44,578 nucleotides of DNA, taken from assembly GCA_013426785.1 (NCBI GenBank), contig JACDZI010000021.1:1-44578 (forward strand), read 5' to 3'. A program made the position numbers and the translations under genes. Positions 63 through 43,726 of the stretch are shown piece after piece. The first letter of the stretch is position 1. The number at the start of each line of letters is the position of its first letter. Source of the DNA: Rhodocyclaceae bacterium. GTDB taxonomy: Bacteria; Pseudomonadota; Gammaproteobacteria; Burkholderiales; Rhodocyclaceae. The notes under the pieces are model-generated. The model had not been told where the DNA came from. It did no database searches and saw nothing but the letters and a program-made list of their open reading frames with translations.

Positions 63-929
63 ATGCCCCTCGACGATCCGCTGGCACTGATTGCCGCCTG
101 CGCGCTGTTCGGCCTGCTGATCGGCAGTTTTCTCAATGTGGTCATCCATCGCCTGCCAATCATGATGGAGCGCGCCTGGCAGGCCGAATGTGCCGAATTC
201 GCTGCCCAATCCATCACCGATGCCGTCCCGCCAGCGCCGACTTTTGAACACTTGTCGCTGGTCACCCCGCGCTCACGCTGCCCGCATTGCGGCCACCCGG
301 TAAGCGCCCTCGAAAACATCCCCATCCTGAGCTACCTGCTCCTCGGGGGTCGTTGCAAGGGCTGCGGCCAGCCGATCAGCCTGCGCTACCCGCTGATTGA
401 GGCGCTGACCGGACTACTGTTCGGCTACGTGGCTTGGCGTTACGGATTCAGTCTGGCAATGGCGGGAGCCCTCCTGTTCGTGGCGGCAATGATCGCCCTC
501 ACCTTCATCGACATCGATACGCAACTTCTGCCCGACGACATCACTTTGCCACTCTTGTGGGCGGGTCTGCTGATCAACCTGAGCGGCACCTTCAGCTCTC
601 TCGCCGATGCCGTCATCGGCGCGGTCGCCGGCTATCTGATCCTGTGGTCGGTATATTGGCTCTTCAAACTGGCGACCGGCAAGGAGGGTATGGGGTATGG
701 CGATTTCAAGCTGCTCGCCGCCGTCGGCGCCTGGCTGGGCTGGCAGTTGCTCCCCTTGGTGATTCTACTCTCCTCGGTGGTGGGCGCGGTCATCGGTATT
801 GTCCTGATGCTGTTTGCCAAGCATGGCCGCAACGTGCCCATCCCTTTTGGCCCTTATCTGGCGACCGCGGGCCTGATTGCACTATTGTGGGGAAAAACCC
901 TCAACCAGACCTATCTCGGTCTGTTCTGA
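63..929 (+). CDS. pilD: Prepilin peptidase / N-methyltransferase (type IV pilus)
   Basis: Inner-membrane aspartic protease that cleaves and N-methylates type IV pilin and pseudopilin precursors. From the ATG at 63 the protein has 288 residues. It has an N-terminal membrane segment with the GSFLNVVIHRLP signature, two CxxC pairs (C73/C76 and C98/C101) of the cytoplasmic zinc domain, the TFIDIDTQLLPD aspartate motif near 148-158 and GMGYGDFK near 209-216, then several hydrophobic helices. An upstream in-frame TTG at 30 would add 11 unconvincing residues. Residues 54-61 (AVPPAPTF) are encoded exactly by one perfect copy of the 24-bp dispersed repeat, placed in the variable stretch just before the first CxxC. 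The TGA at position 1 may be the stop of an upstream pilC, but that is not provable here. Confidence 0.95.
   Translation: MPLDDPLALIAACALFGLLIGSFLNVVIHRLPIMMERAWQAECAEFAAQSITDAVPPAPTFEHLSLVTPRSRCPHCGHPVSALENIPILSYLLLGGRCKGCGQPISLRYPLIEALTGLLFGYVAWRYGFSLAMAGALLFVAAMIALTFIDIDTQLLPDDITLPLLWAGLLINLSGTFSSLADAVIGAVAGYLILWSVYWLFKLATGKEGMGYGDFKLLAAVGAWLGWQLLPLVILLSSVVGAVIGIVLMLFAKHGRNVPIPFGPYLATAGLIALLWGKTLNQTYLGLF
222..245 (+). repeat. 24-bp dispersed repeat, copy 1 (exact)
   Basis: Exact consensus copy: starts GCCGTC, ends CAGCGCCGACTTTT. It lies in frame within pilD and is read as AVPPAPTF. Confidence 0.95.
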
Positions 930-1009
930 GCCGCTTGAATTTGCTGCCAGACGTCGCCATCTGGCCGCGTTGGGTGCGTTTCCACACCCTTGCCTTTGAG
1001 GCGCTTCGC

Positions 1010-1015
1010 TATAAT
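1010..1015 (+). promoter_or_regulatory. Candidate -10 box for the FmdB-type gene
   Basis: Perfect TATAAT at 1010-1015, 25 bp before the ATG at 1040, with GGAG of a ribosome binding site at 1030-1033. The best -35-like hexamer (TTGCCT at 990) is too close (14 bp), so the -35 is unresolved. A 6-bp inverted repeat (GCCAGA/TCTGGC, 946-965) without a T-run lies upstream. Confidence 0.5.
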
Positions 1016-1039
1016 CCCCCGAAATTATTGGAGAAATTC

Positions 1040-1294
1040 ATGCCGATCTATGCCTATCGCTGCAATCAGTGCGGTTTTGAAAAGGATGTCCTGCAAAAAA
1101 TCGCGGACGCTCCTCTGACCACCTGCCCGGAGTGCAAGACCGACAACTTCGCCAAGCAACTCACCGCCGCCGGCTTCCAGCTCAAAGGCAGCGGCTGGTA
1201 CCAAACCGACTTCAAGGGCGGCGCGCCCAAACCGGCTGCCGACAACCCGCCGCCATGTCAGGGCGGTACTGGCAGTTGCCCATCCTGCAATTGA
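1040..1294 (+). CDS. FmdB-family zinc-ribbon protein
   Basis: Small 84-residue protein of the FmdB/CxxC-CxxC regulatory-protein family. It opens with MPIYAYRCNQCG, followed by CPEC about 20 residues later, together forming one zinc ribbon. The middle has the family's FQLKGSGWYQTDF motif, and the tail is Gly/Pro/Cys-rich and ends CPSCN. Function in the family is not established; a regulatory or metal-binding role is usually assumed. The start is set by GGAG at 1030-1033, eight bases upstream. It heads a co-directional series with the DUF502 gene and aspS. Confidence 0.9.
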   Translation: MPIYAYRCNQCGFEKDVLQKIADAPLTTCPECKTDNFAKQLTAAGFQLKGSGWYQTDFKGGAPKPAADNPPPCQGGTGSCPSCN

Positions 1295-1304
1295 TTCCTG
1301 CCGC

Positions 1305-1949: not shown

Positions 1950-1961
1950 CCCTCCTGCGCC

Positions 1962-1985
1962 GCCGTCCCGTCGGCGCCGATATAT
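1962..1985 (+). repeat. Diverged candidate copy of the 24-bp repeat
   Basis: The 5' half matches the consensus (GCCGTCCCG), then differs at five positions, 19 of 24 identical. It is in the DUF502-aspS gap, and TATATT at 1981-1986 at its end could be a -10 box for aspS. It may be coincidental. Confidence 0.35.
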
Positions 1986-2002
1986 TTAGAACGGAAATCT
2001 CC

Positions 2003-3802
2003 ATGCGTACCCACTACTGCGGCCAATTGAATGCCGGCCATGTCGACCAGATCGTCACTCTGTGCGGCTGGGCCCACCGCCGCCGCGACCACGGCGGCGT
2101 GATCTTCATCGACCTGCGCGACCGAGCGGGCATCGCCCAGGTCGTCTGCGATCCTGATCGCCCCGAGATGTTCAAACTGGCCGAGGCCGTGCGCAACGAG
2201 TTCGTGCTCAAGATCACCGGCAAGGTGCGCCGCCGTCCCGCCGGCACCGAGAATCCCAACATGCCCTCCGGGGAAATCGAACTCCTCTGCCACGAACTGG
2301 AAACCCTCAACACTGCCGTCACGCCACCGTTCCAGCTCGACGAGGACAATCTCTCGGAAAATGTGCGCCTGACCCATCGTGTCATCGACCTGCGCCGCCC
2401 GCAGATGCAGAAGAACATGATGCTGCGCTACAAGACCGCACGGGCCTTCCGCCGCTTCCTCGACGACCACGGTTTCATCGACATCGAGACGCCGATGCTG
2501 ACCAAGTCGACGCCCGAAGGCGCCCGCGACTACCTCGTGCCCTCGCGCGTCCATCCCGGCCAGTTCTTCGCCCTGCCGCAATCGCCGCAACTGTTCAAGC
2601 AGTTGCTGATGGTCGCCGGCTTCGACCGCTACTACCAGATCACCAAGTGTTTCCGCGACGAGGACCTGCGCGCCGACCGCCAGCCGGAATTCACCCAGGT
2701 CGATATCGAAACCTCGTTCATGGACGAGACCGCCATCACCGGCATCATCGAGGAGCTGATCCGCTATGTCTTCAAGGACGCGATCGATGTCGATCTGCCC
2801 AATCCATTCCCGCGCATCGGTTACGCCGAAGCCATGCGCCGCTTCGGCTCAGACAAGCCGGACCTGCGCGTGACGCTCGAGCTCACCGAAGTCACCGATG
2901 CCGTCGCCGATGTCGCCTTCAAGGTATTCAGCGGTCCGGCCACTTCCGGCGGCCGCGTCGCCGCCCTGCGCATCCCCGGCGGCGCGACACTCACCCGTGG
3001 CGAAATCGACGGCTACACCGAGTTCGTCAAGATCTACGGTGCCAAGGGCCTGGCCTACATCAAGGTCAACGACGTCAACAAGCTGAACGAGGAAGGCCTG
3101 CAGTCACCCATCGTCAAGAATATCCATGCGGCGGCACTGGTGGCCATCGTCGAGCGCACCGGCGCGCAATCGGGCGACCTGATCTTCTTCGGCGCCGACA
3201 AGACCAAGGTCGTCAACGATGCCCTCGGCGCCCTACGCAGCAAGATCGGCCACGAAAAAGGCTACCTCAACGGCAAGGCTTGGGAACCGGTGTGGGTGGT
3301 CGATTTCTCGATGTTCGAGTACGATGAAGAGGACAAACGCTGGACCGCCTGCCACCATCCCTTCACCTCCCCGAAGGACGGCCACGACGAACTGATGAAG
3401 ACCGACCCCGGCGCCTGCCTGGCCAAAGCCTACGACTTGGCGCTCAACGGCTGGGAAATAGGAGGTGGATCCGTAAGGATCCACTCGGCGGCGGTTCAAG
3501 CGCGCGTCTTCGAAGCCCTTGGCATCGGCGAGGAAGAACAGCGCGTGAAGTTCGGTTTCCTGCTCGACGCACTCAAGTACGGTGCACCGCCCCACGGCGG
3601 CTTGGCCTTCGGCCTGGACCGCATCGTCACCATGATGACCGGCGCCGAATCGATCCGCGACGTGATCGCCTTTCCGAAGACGCAGCGCGCCCAGTGCCTG
3701 CTGACCGACGCCCCGTCCGACGTCGACGAGAAGCAGTTGCGCGAACTGCACATTCGCCTGCGCCAGAAGGTTGAGACGCAAGTCGAGGTTGGCAAGTCCT
3801 GA
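2003..3802 (+). CDS. aspS: Aspartyl-tRNA synthetase
   Basis: Class II synthetase that charges tRNA(Asp) with aspartate; 599 residues, normal for the bacterial type with a GAD insertion domain. An OB-fold anticodon-binding domain (about 1-105) is followed by the catalytic core: motif 2 [18 protein letters not shown] near 217-234, the GAD insertion about 290-420, [12 protein letters not shown] near 483-494 and motif 3 [10 protein letters not shown] near 533-542. Whether it also charges tRNA(Asn) cannot be decided here. Its stop overlaps the next start (TGATG). Codons 486-492 use an unusual run of rare codons (see the palindrome entry). Confidence 0.98.
3459..3484 (+). other. Palindrome and SD-like stretch inside aspS
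   Basis: TAGGAGGT (3459-3466) is a full Shine-Dalgarno-like match. It overlaps a perfect 8-bp inverted repeat, GTGGATCC (3465-3472) / GGATCCAC (3477-3484), with loop GTAA. The codons here are ATA GGA GGT GGA TCC GTA AGG, unlike the CGC/GGC/GTC-rich usage of the rest of the gene, although the encoded peptide is a conserved AspRS motif. Confidence 0.7.
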
Positions 3803-4578: not shown

Positions 4579-5027
4579 GTGGCGGGAAGCAAGCGCCCCG
4601 TTTCCGTACTGGTCGTCATCCACGACCCGCAGTTGAACATAGTGTTGCTTGAACGCGCCGCCCATCCGGGCTTCTGGCAGTCGGTCACCGGCAGCCAGGA
4701 GGCTGACGAAAACCTGGTCACCACGGCGGTGCGCGAAGTGGCCGAAGAAACGGGGATCACCTGCACCCCGGCCGAATTAAGTGACTGGCAGCTATCCAAC
4801 CGTTTCGAGATTTTCGCCGAGTGGCGAGACCGCTATCCGGCCGGCGTGACCCACAACATCGAGCACGTCTTCAGCCTGTGCATCCCGGCGGGCACTCAGG
4901 TCACCATGGCGCCGGGTGAGCATCGGTCTGTACGCTGGCTGCCCTGGCAGGTTGCCGCAACCGCCTGTTTTTCCTGGACGAATCGCGACGCCATCCTGAT
5001 GCTCTGCTTGCAAAAGTCGGCGCTGGC

Positions 5028-5040
<13 letters not shown>
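4579..5040 (+). CDS. nudB: Dihydroneopterin triphosphate diphosphatase (Nudix)
   Basis: Nudix hydrolase removing pyrophosphate from dihydroneopterin triphosphate in folate synthesis. 153 residues from the GTG at 4579, four bases after the barstar stop. KRPVSVLVVIHD, GFWQSVTGSQE and the complete Nudix box G38-x5-E44-x7-R52-E53-x2-E56-E57-x-G59 fit NudB, as does VTHNIEHVFSL. The aspS-nudB neighbourhood matches that known in enterobacteria, here with the RNase/barstar pair in between. The last eight residues (KSALAGRR) come from a copy of the 24-bp repeat, and the TAG stop lies in the loop of the following terminator. Confidence 0.88.
5012..5035 (-). repeat. 24-bp dispersed repeat, copy 2
   Basis: 23 of 24 identical (T instead of C at consensus position 8). 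It encodes KSALAGR at the nudB C-terminus, and its GGACGGC end forms most of the left arm of the terminator at 5028-5063. Confidence 0.95.
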
Positions 5041-5972: not shown

Positions 5973-8304
<2,332 letters not shown>

Positions 8305-9045: not shown

Positions 9046-9368
9046 ATGAAACCGCTCGGCATTCACCAACGCATCCTGATCGCCGCCCTGGCACCGTCGC
9101 CCGCCAGCTAGCTGCCGCAGCCGAGTACGAAATCTTTGTCGATAACCGTAAAAACCTGCAACGACTGCTCGACGCGGTGCGCAAGGAACCCGCATCCTTC
9201 TTTGTGGCAAAGCGGGTGATGACGGCGCCGAATTGACGGCCATGCTCGAACGCTGGAGCTATCGCGTCGACCGGGTGCAGACGAAACGGGAGATCGCGCC
9301 TGTGGTTCAACCGTCCTTTTCAGCCTGCGCGGCTACGGGCACTGCTGAACCACCTGGTTGGCTCATGA
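9046..9368 (+). pseudogene. Remnant of a hybrid sensor histidine kinase
   Basis: Three protein fragments in different frames follow one another. ATG 9046 gives MKPLGIHQRILIAALAP, the type of N-terminus seen before the first membrane helix of BarA-like kinases, with a stop at 9109. Another frame gives AEYEIFVDNRKNLQRLLDAVRKEP up to a stop at 9234. Then LTAMLERWSYRVD resembles helix 1 of a receiver domain, and LWFNRPFQPARLRALLNHLVGS (9300-9368) resembles a receiver C-terminus. This fits a hybrid kinase collapsed by large internal deletions. The family assignment is inference. The last bases overlap the bioC stop. Confidence 0.55.
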
Positions 9369-10184
9369 GCGATGCAGCTTGACGATGGCACGGCCATCGG
9401 CCGTCCTGTCAGCGCCGACTTTCCAGGCGTGACCATAGATGATCTCGAAACGCGCCGGCAGCAATCCGCCCGCGCGTTCCCACGCCGCAAACACTTTCCG
9501 CCATTCCCGCCAGCCCAGGCGACCGAGCAAGGCGTCACGCACGCCCAAGCGGCGCTGGTCGGCGAGGAAGGCGCACGGCGTCGCGTAGGTGAGCGTCAGC
9601 ATCTCCATTTCCATCACCGGGTCGGCGAAGCTTGTTGCGGCCAGCATGTCGCCGATGTCGTGCATGTCGAGAAAAGTCGGCGCCGGCAGGACGGCACCAA
9701 CTGTAGCTGCCGCCGTGCGCAGTTCCTTTAGCGTATCCGGCCCGAGCAAGGTGAAATGCAGCAGGCCTCCTTCGGCCAGGACGCGATGCAATTCGACTAG
9801 GGCAGGACGCAGGCCCGGGAGCCAGTGCAGCATCAGGTTCGACCAGACCAGATCGAGGCTGCCGGTCGCCAGCGGCAAGGCCCGCACATCGGCATTGACG
9901 CAAGCGGGCGCCTGGCCGCGCAGACGTTCCCACCAGCCTAACCTGGCCACCACGGTGGCCAGCATCGGCCGCGCGTAATCCACTGCCAGCGGCACGGCGT
10001 CCGGATAGCGGCGCATCAATTCGCGCACGCCATCACCGGTGGCGCAGCCGATATCGGCCAGGCGGCGCGGGGCCAGCCGTACCACGTCGAGCCGCTCGGC
10101 CATGCGCCGGCCGACCTCGCGCGCCAGCACGGCAGCGTTGTCATAAGATGTGGCAGCAGATGAAAATTTGCATCGCAAGTTCAT
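9363..10184 (-). CDS. bioC: Malonyl-ACP O-methyltransferase (biotin synthesis)
   Basis: SAM-dependent methyltransferase that masks malonyl-ACP for pimelate chain building. 273 residues from the ATG at 10184 (MNLRCKFSSAATSYDNAAVLAREV, the BioC opening); GGGGATG lies about 10 bp upstream. SAM-binding motif RLADIGCATGDG near 41-52, DLVWSNLMLHW near 111-121 and GGLLHFTLLGPDTLKEL near 139-155 are as expected. Two copies of the 24-bp repeat in opposite orientation are embedded: residues 164-171 (AVLPAPTF) and 255-262 (KVGADRTA). It is divergent from comF, as in many betaproteobacterial bioC-comF loci; the comF reading frame may overlap its 5' end. Confidence 0.92.
   Translation of the reverse strand: MNLRCKFSSAATSYDNAAVLAREVGRRMAERLDVVRLAPRRLADIGCATGDGVRELMRRYPDAVPLAVDYARPMLATVVARLGWWERLRGQAPACVNADVRALPLATGSLDLVWSNLMLHWLPGLRPALVELHRVLAEGGLLHFTLLGPDTLKELRTAAATVGAVLPAPTFLDMHDIGDMLAATSFADPVMEMEMLTLTYATPCAFLADQRRLGVRDALLGRLGWREWRKVFAAWERAGGLLPARFEIIYGHAWKVGADRTADGRAIVKLHRS
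9400..9423 (+). repeat. 24-bp dispersed repeat, copy 4
   Basis: 21 of 24 identical. It is antisense to bioC and read there as KVGADRTA near the C-terminus. Confidence 0.8.
9672..9695 (-). repeat. 24-bp dispersed repeat, copy 5
   Basis: 22 of 24 identical. In frame within bioC (residues 164-171, AVLPAPTF), opposite in orientation to the other bioC copy. Confidence 0.9.
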
Positions 10185-10899
10185 TGTCCGATCATCCCCA
10201 TTGGCTACACACTTGTCAATTTCGCCATTCCTCGACTTGCTCTTGCCACGCAGTTGCCTGCTGTGTGGCGCCAGCGCCGCAACAGCACTGTGCGCCGGTT
10301 GCGCGGCCGACCTGCCCGGCCTCGGCCCGCACACCTGTCCGATCTGCGCCATCCCGCTTGCCGCGCCGGCCCCGGCCTGCGGCGACTGCCTGCGCGCGCC
10401 TCCCGCATTCGACGCCACGCTTGCGGCCCTGCGCTATGCCTTTCCGGTCGATCATCTGGTGCAATCCCTGAAATTTGCCCACCGTCTCGCCAGCGCCGAC
10501 TTTTTTGCCGGACGATTGCTGGCGCTGCCACCGCCAACCGGAGATGTCGTCGTGCCGGTGCCATTGTCCCCCCTGCGTCTGCGTGAGCGGGGTTTCAACC
10601 AGGCGGTCGAGATCGCCCGGCCGCTGGCGCGCGCCTATCGGTTGCCTCTGGCGATGACGGGCATCGCGCGGATACGCGAAACCCTGCCGCAAAGTCGTCT
10701 GCCGTGGCATGAGCGTCAGCGCAACCTGCGCCACGCCTTCGAGTGTCGAGTCGATTTCACCGGCAAATCGGTCATCGTGGTCGATGACGTGATGACCTCC
10801 GGCGCGACGCTCAACGCCATTGCCCAGACCCTCAAGGATCATGGCGCGGTACGCGTCTGCAACCGAGTCGCCGCACGCGCGATAAAAACGCTTACTTGA
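10150..10899 (+). CDS. comF: ComF family phosphoribosyltransferase-like protein
   Basis: Double zinc-finger protein with a PRTase domain; the family is linked to processing of incoming DNA in natural competence. The N-terminal cysteines (CLLCG, CAGC, CPIC, CGDC) form the zinc ribbon, and VIVVDDVMTSGATLNAIAQTL is the PRPP-binding motif near the C-terminus. Up to 249 residues if the GTG at 10150 is used; this would overlap bioC head to head by 35 bp. A TTG at 10201 is a reasonable shorter start; neither has a good ribosome binding site. RLASADFF in the middle is read from a repeat copy. Confidence 0.88.
   Translation: MAADENLHRKFIVRSSPLATHLSISPFLDLLLPRSCLLCGASAATALCAGCAADLPGLGPHTCPICAIPLAAPAPACGDCLRAPPAFDATLAALRYAFPVDHLVQSLKFAHRLASADFFAGRLLALPPPTGDVVVPVPLSPLRLRERGFNQAVEIARPLARAYRLPLAMTGIARIRETLPQSRLPWHERQRNLRHAFECRVDFTGKSVIVVDDVMTSGATLNAIAQTLKDHGAVRVCNRVAARAIKTLT
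10481..10504 (+). repeat. 24-bp dispersed repeat, copy 6
   Basis: 22 of 24 identical. Sense orientation in comF, read as RLASADF. Confidence 0.88.
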
Positions 10900-14593: not shown

Positions 14594-15589
14594 CTAGAAA
14601 TACCGGTTCATCAGATTCAACAGTCGCTGGGCTGCCGCCGTGGAGGTCGCGGCACCCTCGGTCACGGCACGCAGTGTATCGGGCAGGCTGGCTTTCACGG
14701 CAGGATGTTCGCGGAAGCGCTGGCGCAGGCCGGTATCGATCAACTGCCACATCCAGTCGATTGTCTGCCGGCGGCGCTTTTCCATAAACGCACCACTTTC
14801 CGTCATGGCCTCGCGGTATTTGAGCAAAGTCTGCCAGACCTTGTCGATGCCTTGGCCGTGCAGTGCGCTAGCCTGCAACACGGGGGGCTGCCAGTTCGGG
14901 TTGGCCGGATGCAACAGCGACAGCGCGGCGCGCATTTGCAGGGCGGCGCGTTCGGCCGCCGTGGCATCCAGGTCGACCTTGTTGTAGATCACCACATCGG
15001 CCAGTTCCATGATGCCCTTCTTGATGGCCTGCAGGTCATCGCCGCTGTTCGGCAGCTGCAACAACACGAACACGTCGGTCATGCCGGCCACCACGGTTTC
15101 CGACTGGCCGACGCCGACCGTCTCGACGATCACCACGTCGTAGCCGGCGGCTTCGCAGACCAGCAACGCCTCGCGGGTCTTCTCGGTCACGCCACCCAGC
15201 GTGCCGGCTGACGGCGACGGCCGGATGAAGGCAAACTCGTTCTGGCACAGCCGCTCCATGCGCGTCTTGTCGCCGAGGATGGAGCCGCCGCTGCGGCTCG
15301 ACGAGGGGTCCACCGCCAGCACGGCAACCTTCAGCCCCTGGTCGATCAGGTGCAGGCCGAAAGCTTCGATGAAGGTCGACTTGCCGGCACCGGGCACCCC
15401 CGTCAGACCGATGCGCAGCGATTTTCCCGTATGCGGCAGCAGCGCATCCAGCACAAGCGCCGCGCGCGCCTGATGGTCGGCGCGCGTCGATTCAACCAGC
15501 GTGATGGCCTTGGCCAACGCGCGCCGCTGCCCAGCCAGCACCCCGGCGACGCGATCGCGGTCTTCCGGAGTCAAGCCGAGCTCTGCCAT
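14594..15589 (-). CDS. meaB: Methylmalonyl-CoA mutase-associated GTPase MeaB (ArgK family)
   Basis: G3E-type P-loop GTPase that protects and reactivates the B12 mutase. 331 residues: P-loop [17 protein letters not shown] (about 60-76), [20 protein letters not shown], the [12 protein letters not shown] switch region and NKVD specificity motif ([11 protein letters not shown]). It lies between mcm and pccB, its expected place. The gap to the mcm stop is entirely a copy of the 24-bp repeat. Confidence 0.95.
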
Positions 15590-15591
15590 CC

Positions 15592-15615
15592 GCCGTCCCG
15601 CCAGCGCCGACTTTT
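15592..15615 (+). repeat. 24-bp dispersed repeat, copy 7 (exact)
   Basis: Exact consensus. It fills the mcm-meaB gap and supplies two bases of the mcm stop codon (TAA at 15616-15614 on the minus strand). Confidence 0.97.
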
Positions 15616-17779
15616 AGGCCGAGGCGGGCAAATGAGCGGCACTGATCGCGCGCAACACTTCATGCGCGCATTGCGGGATCGGCGTGCCGGGGCCGAAGAT
15701 GCCCTTCGCGCCAGCGGCGAACAGCGCCTCGTAGTCCTGCGCCGGGATCACCCCTCCGACGAACACAACGATGTCCTGCCCGCCCTGCTCCTGCAGTGCC
15801 TTGACCAGTTGCGGCACCAGCGTCTTGTGGCCGGCAGCCAGCGTCGACACCCCGAGGGCGTGCACATCGTTTTCGATCGCCTGACGGGCGGCTTCTTCCG
15901 GCGTCTGGAACAGCGGGCCGATGTCCACATCGAAGCCGAGGTCGGCAAAGGCCGTGGCCACCACCTTGGCACCGCGGTCGTGACCGTCCTGGCCGAGCTT
16001 GGCGATCATGATGCGCGGGCGGCGACCCTCGGCAGCAGCAAAGTCCTCGATCTGCTCGCGCAACTCATCGATGCCGGGACTGCTGCCATAAGCGGCGGAA
16101 TACACGCCGGAGACCACCTGATTGGTGGCACGATGGCGGCCCCAGACCTTTTCGAGCGCGTCGGAAATCTCGCCGACGCTGGCGCGCAGGCGGGTTGCCT
16201 TGATGGCAAGGTCGAGAAGGTTGCCCGAACCATCACTAGCGGCGGCAGTCAATGCAGCGAGTGCGGCCTGCACTGCGGCTGCATCGCGGCTGGCGCGAAT
16301 CTCCTTGAGGCGGGCGATCTGCGACTCGCGCACGGCATGGTTGTCGACGTCGAGAAATTCGATCGCATCCTGCTTCGCCAGCTTGTACTTGTTCACACCG
16401 ACGATCACGTCCTGACCGGAATCGATGCGCGCCTGCTTCTCGGCTGCGCACTTCTCAATCTGCAACTTGGCCCAACCGCTGTCGACGGCCTGGGTCATGC
16501 CGCCCATCGTCTCGATTTCCTGGATGGTGTTCCAAGCCATGTCAGCCATGTCCTGCGTCAGCTTTTCCATCATGTAGCTGCCGGCCCACGGGTCGACGAC
16601 GTTCGTGATGTGTGTCTCTTCCTGGATCAGGATCTGCGTGTTACGGGCGATGCGCGACGAGAACTGCGTCGGCAGCGCGATGGCTTCGTCCAGTGCGTTG
16701 GTGTGCAGGGACTGCGTACCACCGAACACCGCCGCCATCGCCTCGATGGTGGTGCGCACGACGTTGTTGTAGGGATCCTGCTCGGTGAGCGACCAACCGG
16801 AAGTCTGGCAGTGGGTGCGCAACATCATCGACTTCGGGTTCTTCGCGCCGAACTCTTTCATGATGCGCCACCACAGGAGGCGCGCGGCGCGCAGCTTGGC
16901 GACTTCAAGGTAGAAATTCATGCCGATGCCGAAGAAGAAACTGAGTCGCCCGGCGAAATTGTCGATGTCGAGCCCGCTCTTCATCGCCGTGCGCACGTAC
17001 TCCATGCCGTCGGCCAGCGTGAAGGCCAGTTCCAGCGCCTGCGTCGCGCCGGCTTCCTGGATGTGGTAGCCGGAGATCGAGATCGAGTTGAACTTCGGCA
17101 TGTGCGCAGCCGTGTAGCCGATGATGTCAGCGATGATGCGCATCGACGGCGCCGGCGGATAGATGTAGGTGTTGCGGACCATGAACTCCTTGAGGATGTC
17201 GTTCTGGATCGTCCCCGACAGCTTGTCCTGCGCCACGCCCTGCTCCTCGGCGGCGACCACGTAGCCGGCGAGGATGGGCAGCACGGCGCCGTTCATGGTC
17301 ATCGACACCGACACCTTGTCGAGCGGGATGCCGTCGAACAGGATCTTCATGTCCGCCACCGAATCGATCGCCACGCCGGCCTTGCCGACATCGCCGACGA
17401 CGCGCGGGTGGTCAGAGTCGTAGCCGCGGTGCGTCGCCAGATCGAAGGCGACCGACACGCCCTGCGCGCCGGCAGCCAGCGCCTTGCGGTAAAAGTCGTT
17501 GGAAGCCTCGGCGGTGGAGAAACCCGCGTACTGGCGGATGGTCCAGGGTCGCGCCGCGTACATCGTCGCCTGCGGACCGCGCAGGAAGGGCTCAAAGCCC
17601 GGCAGCGTGTCGGCATAGGGCAGGTCAGCGGCATCGGCCTTGGTGTAGAGCGGCTTGACGGTCAGACCCTCGGGCGTGGTCCAGACGAGTTTTGCCAGAT
17701 CGCCCTCCGGTGCGGACTTGCTTGCGGCCTTGTTCCAAGCATCGATGCCGGGAACGTTGACTTCTGGGTACTTGCTCAT
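15614..17779 (-). CDS. scpA: Methylmalonyl-CoA mutase (B12-dependent, single large subunit)
   Basis: 721 residues combining the substrate-binding TIM barrel (N-terminal about 550 residues, e.g. [22 protein letters not shown] and [15 protein letters not shown]) and the C-terminal cobalamin domain with [11 protein letters not shown], the DxHxxG motif with the cobalt-binding histidine, and [13 protein letters not shown]. It interconverts methylmalonyl-CoA and succinyl-CoA. GGGAGTGG precedes the ATG. First gene of the mcm-meaB-pccB-pccA operon; together with the epimerase-like gene at 22.5-23.0 kb it gives a route between propionyl-CoA and succinyl-CoA. The mature C-terminus ends two codons after LPA because the stop is provided by the repeat. 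Confidence 0.97.
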
Positions 17780-17840: not shown

Positions 17841-17864
17841 GCCGTCCCGCCAGCGCCGACTTTT
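17841..17864 (+). repeat. 24-bp dispersed repeat, copy 8 (exact)
   Basis: Exact consensus in the 177-bp divergent gap between mcm (start 17779) and the crotonase-family gene (start 17957). No clear promoter boxes are visible around it. Confidence 0.97.
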
Positions 17865-17956: not shown

Positions 17957-18733
17957 ATGAAGCCCGATATCCTGCTGGCCTGTGACGGGCCACTGGTCAC
18001 GGTTACCCTGTTCAACCCGGACAAGCTCAACGCGCTCAACGCCGCCATGTGGCAGCGGCTGGAAGCGGTGTTTCGCGACCTCGATGCCGACACCCATCTG
18101 CGCTGCATCATTGTCCGGGGCGAAGGCACAGCCTTCGCGGCCGGCGGCGATCTGGTCGAAATGCGCGCGGCGCGTGCCACGGTCGATGGGGCGCTGGCCT
18201 ACCACGAGCAGGTCGGTCATGCACTCGACGCCATCGCCGCGTGCCGCCATCCGGTCATCGCCAGCATCCTCGGCCCTTGCGTCGGTGGCGGCCTGGAGAT
18301 TGCGGCCACCTGCGACCTGCGCATTGCCGGCGAATCCGCGAAATTCGGCGCACCGATCAACAAGCTGGGTTTTTCGATGTATCCCGGCGAACTGGCCGGC
18401 CTGCTGAAACTGGCCGGCCCCGCCCTGGTCAAGGAAATCTTGCTCGAAGGCCGCCTGCTGACCGCCCGCGAAGCCCATGAAAAAGGCCTGCTGACGCGCG
18501 TGGTCGCCGATGCCGCAGTAGAGGACGAAACCCTGGCGACCACCCGGCGCATTGCCGCCGGCGCCCCGCTGGTGGCGCGCTGGCACAAGCAGTGGATCGC
18601 TCGCCTGCTGGACGGAAACCCATTGACGCCCAGCGAAAAGCGGGCATCCTTCGCCTTTCTCGACTCGGCGGACTACCGCGAAGGTATTGCCGCCTTCCTT
18701 GAAAAACGTCCGCCGCGTTTCACTGCTCAATAA
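17957..18733 (+). CDS. Enoyl-CoA hydratase/isomerase (crotonase) family protein
   Basis: 258 residues from the ATG at 17957 (GGAAGAAAG upstream). Crotonase landmarks: NPDKLNALNAAMWQRL, the oxyanion-hole stretch GEGTAFAAGGDLVEM and PVIASILGPCVGGGLEIAATCDLRIA. The first catalytic glutamate (GGGLE, equivalent to Glu144 of crotonase) is present, but the second (Glu164, normally in FGQPE) is replaced: here the sequence is FGAPINKLG. A standard hydratase is therefore unlikely; an isomerase, decarboxylase or thioesterase-type activity is possible. It is divergent from the methylmalonyl-CoA operon, which suggests an acyl-CoA role. Confidence 0.85.
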   Translation: MKPDILLACDGPLVTVTLFNPDKLNALNAAMWQRLEAVFRDLDADTHLRCIIVRGEGTAFAAGGDLVEMRAARATVDGALAYHEQVGHALDAIAACRHPVIASILGPCVGGGLEIAATCDLRIAGESAKFGAPINKLGFSMYPGELAGLLKLAGPALVKEILLEGRLLTAREAHEKGLLTRVVADAAVEDETLATTRRIAAGAPLVARWHKQWIARLLDGNPLTPSEKRASFAFLDSADYREGIAAFLEKRPPRFTAQ

Positions 18734-18742: not shown

Positions 18743-19198
18743 ATGACCCGTTTTTCTCGACTGCTGTCAGGGCTGCTCGCCACCGCGCTGGTTGCCATCG
18801 CTCCCGCCACCCTGGCGGTGGAAAAAGTCGGTGCCGGCAGGACGGCAAAGCCGGCAGATAACCGCATCGTCATCCAGATCAACGAGGATGACTCGAAGAA
18901 ATGGCATGCGGTGCTCGGCAACATCCGCAACATCCAGGCCGATCTGGGGCGCAGCAACGTCGCCATTGCCGTCGTGGCGATCGGTCCGGGGTTGGGCATG
19001 CTGGTCGCCGATTCGCTGACCGCCAACGATGTGCAGGATGCTCTGGCAGCCAGGGTCGAATTCGTCGCCTGCGGCAATTCGATGAAAGCGCTACATATCG
19101 ACCCGGCCGACCTAGTGGCTGGCGTGAAGATCGCCAAGGCAGGCTATGTCGAACTGATGCAGCGGCAACGGCAGGGCTGGGCCTACCTGCGGCCATGA
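18743..19198 (+). CDS. Secreted DsrE-like protein (paralogue 1)
   Basis: 151 residues with a signal peptide (about 1-25, ending ATLAV) and a DsrE/DsrF-like fold: RIVIQINEDDSKKWHAVLGNIRNIQADL, VAIAVVAIGPGLGML and a late conserved Cys in VEFVACGNSM. Family members relay or bind sulfur, but the periplasmic subset is uncharacterised. AAAGGAAGG gives a strong ribosome binding site, 9 bp after the crotonase gene. Immediately after the predicted cleavage site the eight residues KVGAGRTA are encoded by the 24-bp repeat. The next gene is a paralogue of the same length. Confidence 0.82.
   Translation: MTRFSRLLSGLLATALVAIAPATLAVEKVGAGRTAKPADNRIVIQINEDDSKKWHAVLGNIRNIQADLGRSNVAIAVVAIGPGLGMLVADSLTANDVQDALAARVEFVACGNSMKALHIDPADLVAGVKIAKAGYVELMQRQRQGWAYLRP
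18823..18846 (-). repeat. 24-bp dispersed repeat, copy 9
   Basis: 21 of 24 identical. Antisense to the DsrE-like gene, read in it as KVGAGRTA just after the signal peptide. Confidence 0.88.
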
Positions 19199-22465: not shown

Positions 22466-22489
22466 GCCGTCCTGCCAGCGCCGACTTTT
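22466..22489 (+). repeat. 24-bp dispersed repeat, copy 10
   Basis: 23 of 24 identical. It occupies all but two of the 26 bases between the stop codons of the convergent FeoB-like and epimerase-like genes. Confidence 0.96.
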
Positions 22490-22490: not shown

Positions 22491-22952
22491 CTAGCCGAGC
22501 GCTGCTACAACCTCGGGCGGTGCCTGCACCAGCTCGATCAGCACGCCTTCGCCAGCGATGGGAAACTCCTCGCTCGCCTTCGGGTGCAGGAAGCAGATAT
22601 CGTAGCCCGCCGCCCCCTTGCGGATGCCGCCCGGCGCAAAGCGCACGCCCTGCGCGGTGAGCCATTCCACAGCCTTCGGCAGGTCGTCGATCCACAGCCC
22701 GACGTGGTTGAGCGGCGTGGTGTGCACCGCCGGCTTTTTTTCCGGATCGACGGGCTGCATCAGGTCCACCTCGACCTTGAAGGCGCCCTTGCCCATTGCA
22801 CAAATGTCCTCATCGACATTCTCGCGTTCCGACACGAAATTGCCGGTCACTTCCAGACCCAGCGTGTCGACCCACAGCGTGCGCAGCCGGTCCTTCGAGG
22901 GTCCGCCAATGGCGATCTGCTGGATACCCAACACTTTGAATGGTCTGGTCAT
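22491..22952 (-). CDS. Methylmalonyl-CoA epimerase-like VOC protein
   Basis: 153 residues, two VOC (glyoxalase-fold) repeats. The C-terminal part [25 protein letters not shown] matches methylmalonyl-CoA epimerases. Metal ligands expected in the family: Glu (KVEVDL), His (LNHVGLW) and Glu (VLIELV) are visible, but the first histidine is Gln (GIQQIAIGG). It would convert (S)- to (R)-methylmalonyl-CoA between PccAB and the mutase. An alternative is another VOC lyase; databases often call such genes lactoylglutathione lyase. Its ATG overlaps the lgt stop (ATGA), so it is translated with lgt. Confidence 0.72.
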
Positions 22953-23731
22953 TTCCTGTTCCCCCTGATAAACAACACGACGCCGATGACGATCATCGGC
23001 AAGGATAGCCATTGTCCCATGCTGACAAGATAAGACTGGCCGAAAATTCCGTGGTCCGGTTCGCGGAAGTACTCGCCGCACCAGCGCGCGACCCCGTAGC
23101 CAACCAGAAACAGCGCCGAAACCTGCATGCGCGGCCGTTCCCGGCTGGAAAACCACCACAGCAGCGCCCACAACAGCAGGCCCTCGCCAACCGCCTGATA
23201 AAGCTGCGACGGGTGGCGCGGCAGGCTGTCGACCTGCGGAAAAATCATCGCCCACGAAAAGTCGGCGTTGGCAGGACGGCCCCACAGCTCGCCGTTGATG
23301 AAATTGCCGATGCGCCCCAGCCCTAGGCCAATGGGGACCAGCGGCGCGATGAAATCGGTGATCTGCCAGAAGCCCATCGCATGCTTGCGGGCGAACAGCG
23401 CCATGGCCACCAGCACGCCGAGGAAGCCGCCGTGGAAGCTCATGCCACCCTGCCAGATCGCCAGGATTTGCAGCGGATGCGTCAGGTAATAGCCCGGCTC
23501 GTAGAACAGCGCCTGACCGAGCCGGCCGCCGAGCACCACGCCCAGCACGCCGTAGAACAGCAGGTCGTCGACATGTTGCGGCGTCAGGCGATGCCAGGGC
23601 TGGGCGACGGCGCGACGCTTGCCGAGCCACAGGAAGGCGAGGAAGCCGGCCAGATACATCAGGCCGTACCAGCGCACGGCCAGCGGGCCGAGACTGATGG
23701 CGACGGGATCGAATTGCGGGTGGATCAACAT
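22949..23731 (-). CDS. lgt: Prolipoprotein diacylglyceryl transferase
   Basis: Integral inner-membrane enzyme that adds diacylglycerol to the lipobox cysteine of lipoproteins. 260 residues from the ATG at 23731 ([27 protein letters not shown]). Family motifs: [13 protein letters not shown] with the essential His, and [16 protein letters not shown], the Lgt signature, followed by [11 protein letters not shown]. Seven hydrophobic segments are visible. In the loop after NGELWGR the residues RPANADF are encoded by a repeat copy. A start six codons earlier (23749) is possible. Confidence 0.96.
23257..23280 (-). repeat. 24-bp dispersed repeat, copy 11
   Basis: 22 of 24 identical. Sense orientation within lgt, read as RPANADF. 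Confidence 0.92.
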
Positions 23732-23779
23732 GCCGCCATTTTGCCGCATTAACGGTTCTGCCAGCGAGAGACTTCCCGA

Positions 23780-23803
23780 GCCTTCCCGCCAGCGCCGACT
23801 TTT
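23780..23803 (+). repeat. 24-bp dispersed repeat, copy 12
   Basis: 23 of 24 identical. It lies 49 bp upstream of the lgt start in the 228-bp gap to the SDR gene; the rest of that gap shows no recognisable feature. Confidence 0.95.
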
Positions 23804-26181: not shown

Positions 26182-26205
26182 GCCGTCCCGCCAGCACCGA
26201 CCTTT
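26182..26205 (+). repeat. 24-bp dispersed repeat, copy 13
   Basis: 22 of 24 identical. Located 67 bp upstream of vapB. Confidence 0.9.
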
Positions 26206-28858: not shown

Positions 28859-29265
28859 TGAAACAGACGCGTATGTTCGATCTTCGGACAGCGATCCATC
28901 ACCACATCAAGGCCGGCTGCGGCGGCTTGGCCGGCGGCCTCCGGATGGATCACCCCAAGCTGCAGCCACAATGACTTCGCGCCGATGGCAATGGCCTCGG
29001 CCGCGACCGGCGGCACGTCGGCGGAATTGCGGAACACATCGACCATGTCGACCGTGACCGGGATGTCGGCCAGGCGCGCATAGCACGGCTGGCCGAGGAT
29101 TTCGCGCTGGCCCGGATTGACGGGAATCACCGTGTATCCGTTCGCCAGCAGGTAACGAGCCACACCATGGCTGGGCCGCTCGGGCTTGGGCGACAGGCCG
29201 ACCATGGCGATCACATTGTGCTGTTGCAGGATGCGGCGGATGCCGGCGTCGTCGCTGACGATCAT
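28846..29265 (-). CDS. CoA-binding domain protein (YccU-like)
   Basis: 139 residues, a single Rossmann-like CoA-binding domain: NVIAMVGLSPKPERPSHGVARYLLANGYTVIPVNPG at the start, VDMVDVFRNSADVPPVAAEAI in the middle, and LWLQLGVIHPEAAGQAAAAGLDVVMDRCPKIEH at the end, the family's conserved C-terminal motif. AGGAGAAG precedes the ATG, which overlaps the gluQ stop (ATGA). Physiological role unknown. Confidence 0.9.
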   Translation of the reverse strand: MIVSDDAGIRRILQQHNVIAMVGLSPKPERPSHGVARYLLANGYTVIPVNPGQREILGQPCYARLADIPVTVDMVDVFRNSADVPPVAAEAIAIGAKSLWLQLGVIHPEAAGQAAAAGLDVVMDRCPKIEHTRLFHHSR

Positions 29266-30185
29266 GCGATCTTCTCCTGGATGGCAATGGCCGCAAGGCG
29301 CGGCACGCGGTCGAGCCTCCAGTGGGCCAGCGCCCACGCGAAAAACTCGGCGCCGGCAAGACGGCGCTCCGGCGGCGCGGGCAGGCCGAGGAAGCGCGCG
29401 GCGGCGCGCAGCACGGGGGCAGGATCGCGCGCATCGACCGGTGCGGCGCGAGTCTGCTTCGAGAGCTTCAGCCCCGCCGCATCGACCGCCACCGGCAGGT
29501 GGGCGTAGGCCGGCGTCGGCAGGGAAAGCAGGCGCTGCAGGAAGATCTGCCGTGCGGTCGAATGGATCAGGTCGGCGCCGCGCACCACATGGTCGACGCA
29601 CTGGTCGGCATCGTCGACCACCACCGCCATCTGGTAGGCGAACAGGCCGTCGGCGCGTAGCAGCACGCAATCGCCCACCTCGCGCGGCAGGTGCTGGGTT
29701 TGCCGGCCCTGTACCGCATCGGCGAAGGCGACCTCGCCCTCGACCCGCAGCCGCCACGCCCGTCCCGGTTTGCCGGCGGGCAGGCCGGCCCGGCAGGTGC
29801 CCGGATAGACCGGGGCGCCGTCGACGCCGGGTAAGGCAGCGGTCAGTTCGCTGCGAGTGCAGCCGCAGGGATAGACGGCCCCCGCCACCCTGAGCTGCTC
29901 GAACACCTCGCGGTAACGCTCGCTGCGCCGGCTTTGCACCATCACCTCGTCATCCCATTCAAAACCAAAGGCTTCCAGTGTGCGCAGGATGTCGGCGGCG
30001 TATTCGGGTCGGCTACGCGGCGTATCGACATCTTCCATGCGCACCAGCCAGCGGCCGCCACAGGCGCGTGCCTCCAGATAGGAGCCGAGCGCGGCGACCA
30101 GCGAGCCGAAGTGCAGCCGGCCGGTGGGCGACGGCGCGAAACGGCCACAGGAAATGTGATCGAGGAAGGGCATCGGGCTATTCAT
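29262..30185 (-). CDS. gluQ: Glutamyl-Q tRNA(Asp) synthetase
   Basis: Truncated glutamyl-tRNA synthetase paralogue that attaches glutamate to queuosine-34 of tRNA(Asp). 307 residues, no anticodon-binding domain. GRFAPSPTGRLHFGSLVAALG has the HIGH-like site, LKLSKQTRA the KMSKS-like site, and YPCGCTR ... YPGTC gives the zinc ligands. Near the C-terminus RRLAGAEFF is read from a diverged repeat copy. It is divergent from the thioredoxin gene, 65 bp apart. No clear ribosome binding site before 30185; an ATG four codons later is an alternative. Confidence 0.95.
   Translation of the reverse strand: MNSPMPFLDHISCGRFAPSPTGRLHFGSLVAALGSYLEARACGGRWLVRMEDVDTPRSRPEYAADILRTLEAFGFEWDDEVMVQSRRSERYREVFEQLRVAGAVYPCGCTRSELTAALPGVDGAPVYPGTCRAGLPAGKPGRAWRLRVEGEVAFADAVQGRQTQHLPREVGDCVLLRADGLFAYQMAVVVDDADQCVDHVVRGADLIHSTARQIFLQRLLSLPTPAYAHLPVAVDAAGLKLSKQTRAAPVDARDPAPVLRAAARFLGLPAPPERRLAGAEFFAWALAHWRLDRVPRLAAIAIQEKIA
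29342..29365 (-). repeat. 24-bp dispersed repeat, copy 14 (diverged)
   Basis: 20 of 24 identical. Sense orientation in gluQ, read as RRLAGAEF. It is the weakest of the accepted copies. Confidence 0.65.
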
Positions 30186-34679: not shown

Positions 34680-35149
34680 CAGCCAATGATGAACATGGGT
34701 TGGTCGAATTCGACCGGTTGGCCATTTTCGACGAGGATGGCCTTGACGACGCCATCGGCATCCGACTCGATTTCGTTCATCAGTTTCATCGCCTCGATGA
34801 TGCAGAGCGTTTCGCCCTTCTTCACCACCGCGCCGACCTCGACGAAAGCCGCAGCACCCGGACTGCCGGAACGGTAGAAGGTACCGACCATCGGCGCCCG
34901 CACCGCATGGCCTTCAAGTTCTGGTGCCACAATATCTTCGGGCAGGGAAGTCGGCGCCAGCGGGGCGGCATTATTGCCCATCACTACCTGCGACTGCGCG
35001 CCCATCGGCATGCTCACCATGGTCGTGGTCGGCATCATGGGGGCATGCTTCGCGATGCGGATCTTTTCCTCGCCCTCGCTGATTTCCAACTCGGAAATGC
35101 CCGAATTCTGCACCAGTTCAATGAGGGTTTTCAGTTTTCTCAGGTCCAT
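34679..35149 (-). CDS. accB: Acetyl-CoA carboxylase biotin carboxyl carrier protein
   Basis: 156 residues from the ATG at 35149 (GGAGACAGC upstream). N-terminal [23 protein letters not shown], an Ala/Pro/Met-rich linker, and the biotinyl domain ending with [18 protein letters not shown] where the lysine of AMKLM is biotinylated; the [14 protein letters not shown] thumb-like segment is also present. A longer in-frame start at 35224 would run through the hairpins and is unlikely. Confidence 0.96.
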
Positions 35150-37789: not shown

Positions 37790-38509
37790 GTGTTCATCAA
37801 GATCGTCATAGTCCTGCTGCTGCTCATCGTGGTGGCGAGTTTGCTGACGAACCGCAACCCGCAGGCACGCCAGCGCCCGTTGACGCGGGTGCGCCCCCTG
37901 ATGCTGCGTGTTGCCATCGTGCTGCTGGTCATCAGCAGCATCCTGGCCGGTTTACATCTGTCGGGTTGCAGCCGTGAAGCGGCAACCTTCCACTCCACCG
38001 ACATCAGCGGGGCGGATTTCGCCCGGCTGAAGGCGCTCGACAGCCTCAGCGATCACCGCGGTCGCCGTCTCGCCAGCGCCGACTTTTCAGGAAAGGTGGT
38101 GGTGGTTTATTTCGGCTACACCCTGTGCCCGGACATTTGTCCGACCACCCTGACGGCCATGAAGGAGGCGATGCAGCGGCTCGGTCCGGCAGCCGACCGC
38201 GTGCAGGTGCTGTTCGTGACGGTCGATCCCGAGCGGGATACGCCAGAACTGCTCGCCGCCTACGTGCCCTGGTTCGACGCCCGTTTTCTGGGCCTCCACG
38301 CCGCCCCCCAAACCACGCGGGAGATTGCCCGGGAGTTCCATGTCCTCTATAGCAAGGTCAAGGGCAGCGCGGCACTCGACTACAGTATCGACCACAGTGC
38401 GACCAGCTATGCCTACGATCCGGCCGGGCGGCTGCGACTGCTGATCCGTCACGGCGAATCGCCCGACAACATCGCGGCCGACTTGCGTCAATTACTGGCA
38501 GGAAAATAA
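37790..38509 (+). CDS. SCO1/SenC-type copper chaperone with extra N-terminal membrane segment
   Basis: 239 residues from a GTG directly after the mpl stop. The C-terminal 170 residues are SCO1: GKVVVVYFGYTLCPDICPTTL with the copper-binding CxxxC, VTVDPERDTPELLAAYV, and DYSIDHSATSY with the distal His. The N-terminus is unusual: a first membrane helix (2-20), then PLMLRVAIVLLVISSILAGLHLSGC, which alone would be a lipoprotein signal with lipobox LSGC. An ATG at 37901 would give a standard 202-residue SCO lipoprotein. So either a fused small membrane protein or an internal start. RRLASADF (about 92-99) is a repeat copy. Role: copper insertion into cytochrome oxidase. Confidence 0.85.
   Translation: MFIKIVIVLLLLIVVASLLTNRNPQARQRPLTRVRPLMLRVAIVLLVISSILAGLHLSGCSREAATFHSTDISGADFARLKALDSLSDHRGRRLASADFSGKVVVVYFGYTLCPDICPTTLTAMKEAMQRLGPAADRVQVLFVTVDPERDTPELLAAYVPWFDARFLGLHAAPQTTREIAREFHVLYSKVKGSAALDYSIDHSATSYAYDPAGRLRLLIRHGESPDNIAADLRQLLAGK
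38064..38087 (+). repeat. 24-bp dispersed repeat, copy 15
   Basis: 23 of 24 identical. Sense orientation in the SCO1 gene, read as RRLASADF. Confidence 0.93.
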
Positions 38510-39412: not shown

Positions 39413-39434
39413 GTCAGGATCCTCCTTGATGCAA

Positions 39435-39464
39435 ATATTAGCACTCGTCGCGTATGAGTGCTAA
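39435..39464 (-). promoter_or_regulatory. Candidate rpoH core promoter overlapped by CIRCE
   Basis: On the minus strand TTAGCA (39464-39459) and TAATAT (39440-39435) are 18 bp apart and could be the -35 and -10. CIRCE overlaps both almost exactly. Transcription would start about 20 bases before the rpoH start. Confidence 0.5.
39438..39464. promoter_or_regulatory. CIRCE operator (HrcA binding site) of rpoH
   Basis: Perfect TTAGCACTC (39438-39446) - 9-bp spacer - GAGTGCTAA (39456-39464), the universal CIRCE consensus. A further half-site-like TAGCAC (39468-39473) forms a second overlapping dyad, GTGCTA-ATAA-TAGCAC. HrcA is the known repressor binding CIRCE. Confidence 0.95.
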
Positions 39465-39505
39465 TAATAGCACAAGTTTCCGACTATTTTAGTGTGCCTT
39501 TGTGG

Positions 39506-42647: not shown

Positions 42648-42654
42648 GCGCCGC

Positions 42655-43623
42655 TCATTGGCCAAATAGTGCTTCCACGAATTCCCTCGCCTTGAACGGC
42701 TGCAGGTCATCGATGCCTTCGCCGACGCCGATGAAGCGCACCGGCTTAGGGCACTGGCGGGCAATGGCCGCCAGCACGCCGCCCTTGGCGGTGCCGTCGA
42801 GCTTGGTGACGACCAGTCCCGTCACATTAATCGCCTTGTCGAAGGCCTTGACCTGGGCGATGGCGTTCTGGCCGATGTTGGCGTCGAGTACCAGCAAGAC
42901 TTCATGCGGGCCAGTGGGTTCCGCCTTATGGATCACGCGGCGTACCTTGGCGATTTCTTCCATCAGGTGCAGTTGCGTCGGCAGGCGGCCCGCCGTGTCG
43001 GCCAGCATCACGTCGATGCCGCGAGCGCGCGCCGCACCGATGGCGTCGAAGATCACCGCGCCGGGGTCACCGCCGTCCTGCGCGATCACGGTCACTTCAT
43101 TTCTGCGGCCCCATTCGGTCAGTTGCTCACGAGCAGCTGCGCGGAAAGTATCGCCCGCTGCCAGCAATACGCCATGGCCATCGTTCTGGAACTGTTTGGC
43201 CAGCTTGCCGATCGAGGTGGTCTTGCCGGCGCCATTCACGCCCGCGATCATAATGATGAAGGGGCGCTGGTGCTGGTCGGGATGATTCAGGTCGAGCGGC
43301 TGCTCGAGCGGCGCCAGCAATTCCGTCAGCAGGTCGATCAGCACTGCACGGAGTGCGGCCGGCGATTCGATGCGCTGCTTCCTCACCTGCGCACGCAACT
43401 CATCCAGCAGCCACTGCGTCGCCTCGACGCCGCAATCGGCCATCAGCAGGGTCGATTCCAGCTCTTCGAGGAGTTCTTCGTCGATCTTGCCACGGGCGAA
43501 CAGGTCGCCCAGCGGGGTGTTAAGCGTGACACGCGTGCGGGAAAGGCCCACCTTGAGGCGCTCGGTCCAGGAGAGCTTGGGGGCTTCAGGCGAGACATGA
43601 TCTTTTTTTTGAAAACCAAACAT
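42655..43623 (-). CDS. ftsY: Signal recognition particle receptor FtsY
   Basis: 322 residues, with a short N-terminal acidic domain compared with E. coli (497). SRP GTPase: P-loop GVNGAGKTTSIGKLA, AAGDTFRAAAREQL (insertion box), DTAGRLPTQ and VTKLDGTAKGG. Docks ribosome-SRP complexes at the inner membrane. Leading gene of the ftsY-COG2509-ftsE-ftsX-rpoH run. The 112 bp upstream contain a repeat copy; no strong promoter is obvious. Confidence 0.97.
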   Translation of the reverse strand: MFGFQKKDHVSPEAPKLSWTERLKVGLSRTRVTLNTPLGDLFARGKIDEELLEELESTLLMADCGVEATQWLLDELRAQVRKQRIESPAALRAVLIDLLTELLAPLEQPLDLNHPDQHQRPFIIMIAGVNGAGKTTSIGKLAKQFQNDGHGVLLAAGDTFRAAAREQLTEWGRRNEVTVIAQDGGDPGAVIFDAIGAARARGIDVMLADTAGRLPTQLHLMEEIAKVRRVIHKAEPTGPHEVLLVLDANIGQNAIAQVKAFDKAINVTGLVVTKLDGTAKGGVLAAIARQCPKPVRFIGVGEGIDDLQPFKAREFVEALFGQ

Positions 43624-43702
43624 GGGGACTCAGTCACAGGCAATGGCGCGCACGGCTTGATGCGCGTTTCTGATTTTAAAGCGCAAAGCCATACACCTCA
43701 CG

Positions 43703-43726
43703 AAAAGTCGGCGCTGGCGGGACGGC
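43703..43726 (-). repeat. 24-bp dispersed repeat, copy 16 (exact)
   Basis: Exact consensus, reverse orientation, between ftsY (start 43623) and the DUF5615 pseudogene (stop at 43736-43738). Confidence 0.97.

Follow-up and report, generated by a model that had tools for sequence, protein, structure and literature searches.

Uptake sequences have been described for the Neisseriaceae and the Pasteurellaceae, mainly mucosal bacteria, and their origin is disputed, being seen either as the outcome of selection for kin DNA or as a by-product of receptor bias, as set out in a portion of Mora et al. 2020 (PMC7811141), which together with a part of PMC2397512 also lists the traits of such sequences. 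In the Neisseriaceae the reader of the DNA uptake sequence (DUS) is the minor pilin ComP; for the uptake signal sequence (USS) of the Pasteurellaceae the receptor ComN/PpdA is, according to a passage of PMC12616744, a prediction. Here we analyse a 24-bp word, GCCGTCCCGCCAGCGCCGACTTTT, that is scattered through a stretch of 44,578 nucleotides (the window, meaning this whole stretch) on contig JACDZI010000021.1 of a Rhodocyclaceae bacterium. The original prediction, made from the letters of the window, had likened this word to the neisserial DUS, and the suggestion gains support from how densely the copies fill the genome, from their even spacing and indifference to strand, from their avoidance of constrained genes and of two mobile-looking stretches, and from gap-free turnover at many sites and genus-level dialects. 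By analogy with the described systems, the word is quite probably a DNA uptake sequence of this bacterial group; both the uptake and its receptor are what we infer from these comparisons.

The genome to which the window belongs (3.24 Mb) holds 734 copies within three mismatches of a form with C or T at position 8, against 0 + 0 for the reversed pattern at the same threshold, and the repeat is not confined to the region of the window. The copies divide into 356 forward and 378 reverse (p 0.44), that is, without strand bias. The 123 copies profiled, from 435 kb, have C at position 8 in 70% of cases and T in 30%. Directly before the 24 positions stands a 25th (C or T); the conserved stretch runs from position 0 to position 24, with flanks devoid of signal on either side. 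The information content, summed by hand over the positions, amounts to about 39 bits, a figure inflated because the copies were chosen within four mismatches. Its limits are sharp: the unit is 24-25 bp long and no fragment of a longer repeat, and it is not palindromic.

Like the neisserial DUS, which according to sections of PMC3630211 and PMC2397512 is present in hundreds to thousands of copies on both strands at permissive places of the core genome, is absent from recently acquired genes and has taxon dialects, the word belongs to betaproteobacterial hosts and is abundant on both strands. It is, however, 24-25 bp long against 10-12 bp, and has a density of 0.23 copies per kb, whereas a part of PMC3630211 gives about 1900 DUS copies in 2.2-2.3 Mb. 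None of its six reading frames, all of which were checked, holds a stop codon, in contrast to the UGA that the same source places in one frame of all DUS dialects but one. Closely spaced inverted pairs, described for the terminators of Neisseria and of Pasteurellaceae, are few here. The neisserial 10-mer core occurs 0 times in 455 kb of the window's own genome, which rules out the neisserial DUS proper; because of this absence the shared start GCCGTC, to which the original prediction had pointed, is no sign of membership, and what stands of the likening is the kind of sequence. With the pasteurellacean USS, as portrayed in a portion of PMC7811141, the word shares fairly even spacing, avoidance of constrained genes and new segments and, at part of its sites, apparent change by substitution, but the two sequences are unrelated and the hosts of the USS belong to another bacterial class. 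The USS proper is likewise ruled out, its 9-mer cores occurring 4 times and once in the same 455 kb, where the reversed control occurs 6 times.

The distribution of the word was surveyed in sampled genomes, some of them incomplete. In 37 of 297 genomes of the family the word of the window, dialect A, is present in at least 140 copies, and the other 260 hold at most 30 (hand count). By genus, the carriers are 11 of 12 genomes in g1, 11 of 12 in g2, the single genomes of g9 and g62, all four of g70 and all nine of g88. Copies number 199-728 in 17 of the 18 congeners sampled and 0 in the remaining one, G005 (87% complete). Named genomes were reached through the window's aspartyl-tRNA synthetase, 50 of the 80 loci that it matched being used; 11 of these 50 genomes hold 159-743 copies and the remaining 39 hold 0-11. 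The named carriers include metagenome-assembled genomes (MAGs) under the labels Sulfurisoma, Sulfuritalea (two MAGs), Rugosibacter and Propionivibrio dicarboxylicus. The first three genera are placed in the Sterolibacteriaceae by the NCBI taxonomy. The window's genome presumably belongs to the Sulfuritalea/Sulfurisoma/Rugosibacter neighbourhood.

Other genera carry re-spelled words of equal length and of the same layout, G[CG]CGT...GACTTTY, with a different centre; together with dialect A, the word of six genera, five dialects have been found so far. Dialect B is CGCCGTnCCGCgGnGACTGACTTTT (genome G028 of genus g11; 20 rows from 140 kb), dialect C cgCCGTntCcCCAGCGTCGACTTTT (G136, g69; 17 rows from 110 kb), dialect D GGCGTgcCaCCacGGCTGACTTTC (G157, g90; 15 rows from 160 kb) and dialect E CGCCGTctCGCcGGCGCTGACTTTC (G114, g47; 8 rows from 140 kb). 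The rows were selected by the 3' core, which is therefore uniform by choice; the 5' end, GCCGT or GGCGT, is independent evidence for the dialects because it played no part in the selection. A search pattern that excludes dialect A, GNYYGACTTTT, revealed g11 and g90. The bipartite pattern GCCGT-N12-GACTTTT, searched exactly, occurs 34-300 times per genome in 10 of 11 g11 genomes, 93 times in G136 and 6-616 times in each of the 37 dialect-A genomes; elsewhere in the family it reaches 19 in G114, 10 in G327, 9 in G147 and 9 in G238, with at most 5 in the others, reversed-pattern controls in the family giving 0-5. In 386 genomes of the order outside the family it occurs 0-8 times per genome (reversed control at most 15, in one). 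The dialects follow taxonomy, with D and E each drawn from a single genome (15 and 8 rows). Inside carrier genera there are apparent losses, namely G005 (g1, 0 copies), G244 (g11, 0 bipartite copies) and G327 (g2, 19 dialect-A copies), and word counts found no dialect in 292 kb of G005 or in small samples of G244 (40 kb) and G290 (24 kb).

Placement along the chromosome was followed in 55 stretches, 455 kb from the window's own genome and 648 kb from the complete genome G017, with gene calls from a home-made caller. The word is depleted in genes in both genomes: 66 of 124 copies lie wholly inside genes in the own genome, against a coding fraction of 0.80 (binomial p 3e-11), and 54 of 95 in G017, against 0.88 (p 5e-14). 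Within genes either orientation is used (own genome: 32 sense, 34 antisense; G017: 22 sense, 32 antisense), and two of the six reading frames, those of the PSRQRRL and KSRRWRDG types, are hardly used, together accounting for 3 of 66 copies in the own genome and 1 of 54 in G017. Intergenic copies concentrate within about 50 bp downstream of stop codons. Spacing is more even than chance in both genomes, with a coefficient of variation of 0.74 against 0.99 +- 0.09 for random placement in the own genome (2000 simulations, p 0.0005) and of 0.58 against 0.86 +- 0.07 in G017, where 0 of 2000 simulations were as even. Gaps above 11.5 kb occur in 8 of the 55 stretches, and four of these are entire 20-kb stretches without a copy. 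One, in the own genome (L005), holds rpoA, secY, rpsC, the genes for EF-Tu and EF-G and the end of rpoC; another, in G017 (L230), holds rpoB and the gene for EF-G; and the remaining two (L278 and L235 of G017, about 50 kb apart) encode a recombinase, a phage-type D5_N primase domain, a ParB/DNA methylase protein and helicases. The other gapped stretches (L218, L228, L237 and L280), with gaps of 12-15 kb, lie outside the annotated set. In these few stretches, and with home-made gene calls, the copies avoid constrained rpo/ribosomal and mobile-looking DNA.

For the window itself, our recount agrees with the original prediction: 16 copies at up to four mismatches (at least 20 of 24 bases identical), nine on the plus strand and seven on the minus, with exact copies at 222, 15592, 17841 and 43703. 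That such a number does not arise by chance is borne out by 50 first-order Markov sequences, which contain 0 matches at up to four mismatches and 0.04 per sequence at five. As to gene content, pilD is present as had been said, but comF was not found among the 24 window open reading frames (ORFs) scanned, which are not every ORF. The copies, with two weaker candidates, are as follows.

222..245, plus strand: exact copy of the 24-bp element, within pilD (prepilin peptidase, ORF 30-929, plus strand), coding for AVPPAPTF
1962..1985, plus strand: possible degenerate copy, weak, five mismatches, between ORFs 1305-1949 and 2003-3802
5012..5035, minus strand: element with one mismatch (T form), at the 3' end of a NUDIX gene ending at 5040
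7797..7820, minus strand: element with three mismatches, in a gene with an MMR_HSR1 GTPase domain (7612-8304, minus strand)
9400..9423, plus strand: element with three mismatches, in a methyltransferase gene (ORF 9363-10418, minus strand)
9672..9695, minus strand: element with two mismatches, in the same methyltransferase gene (9363-10418), orientation opposite to the copy at 9400
10481..10504, plus strand: element with two mismatches, between the methyltransferase ORF and a gene called at 10552
15592..15615, plus strand: exact copy, filling the gap between meaB (14594-15589, minus strand) and a methylmalonyl-CoA mutase gene (15614-17779, minus strand)
17841..17864, plus strand: exact copy, between the ORF ending at 17779 and a gene called at 17957
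18823..18846, minus strand: element with three mismatches, in a DsrE-like gene (18743-19198, plus strand)
22466..22489, plus strand: element with one mismatch, directly 3' of the stop codon of feoB (20428-22464, plus strand)
23257..23280, minus strand: element with two mismatches, in lgt (22949-23749, minus strand)
23780..23803, plus strand: element with one mismatch, closely upstream of lgt
26182..26205, plus strand: element with two mismatches, in a region with no confident gene call
29342..29365, minus strand: element with four mismatches, towards the 3' end of a tRNA-synt_1c gene (29262-30185, minus strand)
34946..34969, minus strand: possible degenerate copy, weak, five mismatches
38064..38087, plus strand: element with one mismatch, in a SCO1/SenC gene (37790-38509, plus strand)
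43703..43726, minus strand: exact copy, upstream of an ftsY-like gene (42655-43623, minus strand)

How single sites change was judged mainly from protein alignments, since nucleotide alignments between genes are too gappy to recognise insertion; in 197 nucleotide pairs the word is kept in 88, absent without a gap in 27, and absent with gaps of many sizes in the rest. Of 136 in-gene copies from the own genome and G017, 36 have an informative orthologue elsewhere, and in their orthologue pairs the word is kept in 29, changed without a gap in 34 and gapped in 86. A gap-free orthologue lacking the word exists at 20 of the 36 sites, and nine of these 20 have such a partner with 60% identity or more and without any net change of length within six residues; at the lgt site (23257) four word-less orthologues align without a gap. 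Turnover thus appears mixed, largely by substitution with indels in addition. For comparison, in a part of PMC2397512 many recent DUS of Neisseria face unlike homologous sequence, which is read there as gain by recombination, and the USS of Pasteurellaceae is reported to change by point mutation in a passage of PMC7811141.

If the word is an uptake sequence, some DNA-binding component of the competence machinery or the type IV pilus would favour double-stranded DNA that carries it. The receptor may read both ends, G[CG]CGT and GACTTTY, which lie about 1.7 helical turns apart and are common to the five spellings, and the centre as well, with a strictness that would vary by genus. Kin DNA would therefore be taken up preferentially, and recombination of this DNA would copy the word into homologous loci. 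A molecular drive of this sort, fuelled by biased uptake, could build and maintain hundreds of near-consensus copies wherever gene function tolerates them, and the driven copies would come to lie at even distances on both strands. Dialects A-E would arise when an altered receptor re-spells the word across a genus, and once the preference was lost the word would decay. Uptake bias, receptor and drive are the steps that we infer here.

A chromosome-organising site and a small mobile repeat had also been offered as explanations, and both fit less well than an uptake sequence. That the word serves as a site for a chromosome-organising or DNA-processing protein (nucleoid, Chi-, KOPS- or matS-like; KOPS, FtsK-orienting polar sequences), each copy being selected for itself, seems unlikely to us. 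Its high information content and bipartite form are typical of protein recognition, its even spacing would suit such a role, and KOPS, Chi and matS are likewise short over-represented chromosomal signals read by proteins. The word, however, shows no significant strand or replichore bias, 55 of 95 copies having one sense relative to replication in 33 stretches of the complete G017, whose GC skew turns near 1.3 Mb (p 0.15); moreover, it is re-spelled between genera and apparently lost altogether between close species, with no copy in the congener G005 and no bipartite copy in the g11 species G244. An element that inserts at new places, either a small mobile repeat or one resembling repetitive extragenic palindromic (REP) sequences, bacterial interspersed mosaic elements (BIME) or miniature inverted-repeat transposable elements (MITE), is in our view still less probable. 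These are also short dispersed repeats enriched 3' of genes, eight G017 copies of the word lie within a longer hairpin repeat, and indels inside the word are seen in one or more partners at 16 of the 36 in-gene sites (in all partners at 7 of the 36). At the pilD site (222), 33 of the 42 orthologues aligned fall short by exactly seven residues, for which an insertion of about 21 bp would be the simplest reading. Yet the word has neither palindrome nor conserved flank, more than half of its copies lie in genes and in both orientations, and gap-free turnover is seen at many sites; beyond pilD, no net length change repeats at more than six pairs of any site and no partner is exactly eight residues shorter, and a constant length with re-spelled centres across genera would be unexpected for an inserting element.

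We regard as very improbable the view that the word is primarily an intrinsic transcription terminator or another element acting at the RNA level. It draws on the intergenic copies just past stop codons, on the 8 of 43 intergenic copies in G017 that fold with their flank below -30 kcal/mol (0 with shuffled flanks) and on the eight word-based hairpins of that genome, one with matching changes on both arms. Against it, more than half of the copies lie in genes in either orientation, and some in-gene copies of G017 fold equally well (10 of 67, 2 with shuffled flanks). In the own genome, folding below -30 kcal/mol is reached by 1 of the 57 copies between genes, and exact complements of the word in the flanks are near shuffle level. 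Terminator use of the word looks secondary, as it is described for DUS and USS in a portion of PMC1852404.

The indels at in-gene sites and the apparent insertion in pilD also count against an uptake sequence, as do the observations that follow, and our confidence is slightly lowered because the pilD site is counted. Close pairs of opposite orientation are rare (2 in the own genome), and no paper linking natural transformation with Sulfuritalea turned up in the open-access literature. The own genome does hold PilD, ComEC, DprA and a PilE-type minor-pilin operon, the PilE of which is its match to the ComP_DUS pilin family (PF16732). This family, however, is matched in 54 of 61 genomes regardless of the word, which speaks against ComP as the discriminating receptor, and the word-rich G015 (83% complete) has no such match. 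ComEC is present in 53 of 53 genomes and DprA exceeds the cut-off in 51 of 53; their loss as the explanation for word-less congeners is ruled out, the genes being retained. The word-rich and nearly complete G164 lacks a DprA match and G019 has one at E 3.8e-4 only, which argues either against efficient transformation in these genomes or for a recent loss. The word-less G005 and G244 retain the PilE-type operon, G244 together with a PilA-like pilin. In a pilin inventory of eight genomes, G244 has 6 N_methyl matches and its congener G211 has 12; a G211 cluster (L309) that may resemble the mannose-sensitive haemagglutinin (MSHA) pilins has no counterpart among the G244 matches fetched. Neither this inventory nor the pilin sequence comparison yielded a receptor candidate. 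Carriers cannot be told from non-carriers by ComEC, by DprA or by the pilins examined.

We lean towards the view that the word represents a third, separately evolved uptake-sequence system, that of environmental betaproteobacteria near Sulfuritalea, Sulfurisoma and Rugosibacter, with a 24-bp bipartite signal in at least five dialects and at least ten genera and a receptor, perhaps other than ComP and ComN, that would span nearly two helical turns. No description of uptake sequences in Rhodocyclaceae or Sulfuritalea was found in the open-access literature, an earlier description elsewhere being possible, and a text search of that literature for parts of the word or its complement returned only a 12-letter piece, in four plant papers. 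What is new would be the bacterial family, the longer signal and its own set of dialects, while the logic is the same as that of the known uptake sequences. If so, the preference for kin DNA in uptake would not be peculiar to mucosal bacteria, and an environmental family with dialects, apparent within-genus losses and a longer signal would permit independent tests of both ideas on the origin of such sequences. The word could also serve as a practical handle when added to DNA meant to transform such species, and it may mark donor DNA, a few non-carrier genomes holding clustered or mixed-dialect copies.

In the Sideroxyarcus MAG G088 (L148), all five copies at three mismatches fall inside 13 kb (C17:134520-147426), which would be either an acquired island or a mis-binned contig. 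G434, from another family of the order, holds the highest number of bipartite words outside the family, 8, on contigs C5, C23, C34, C45 and C67; several are A-like and several B-like, and this genome is a probable recipient of DNA from two kinds of carriers. The exact word is also found in 27 stretches of a collection of 2.9 million viral contigs. In the longer hairpin repeat of G017 the word is followed, after a short loop, by its approximate reverse complement, mostly AGTCGGCGCCCGGCGGGACG, and then by a T-rich tail that usually ends in CCGCCAG. It has 8 matches in the 648 kb of this genome, at L089, L268, L269, L276, L277, L282 and L284, and the pattern gives none elsewhere in the sampled stretches; convergent called genes flank four of the matches, and three are within called genes. 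The word may here have been taken over by a terminator or a REP-like element. In L078/L089 of the same genome, a GCTCAGGCTC/GAGCCTGAGC repeat run with 11 occurrences is prominent in the word counts of 28 kb.

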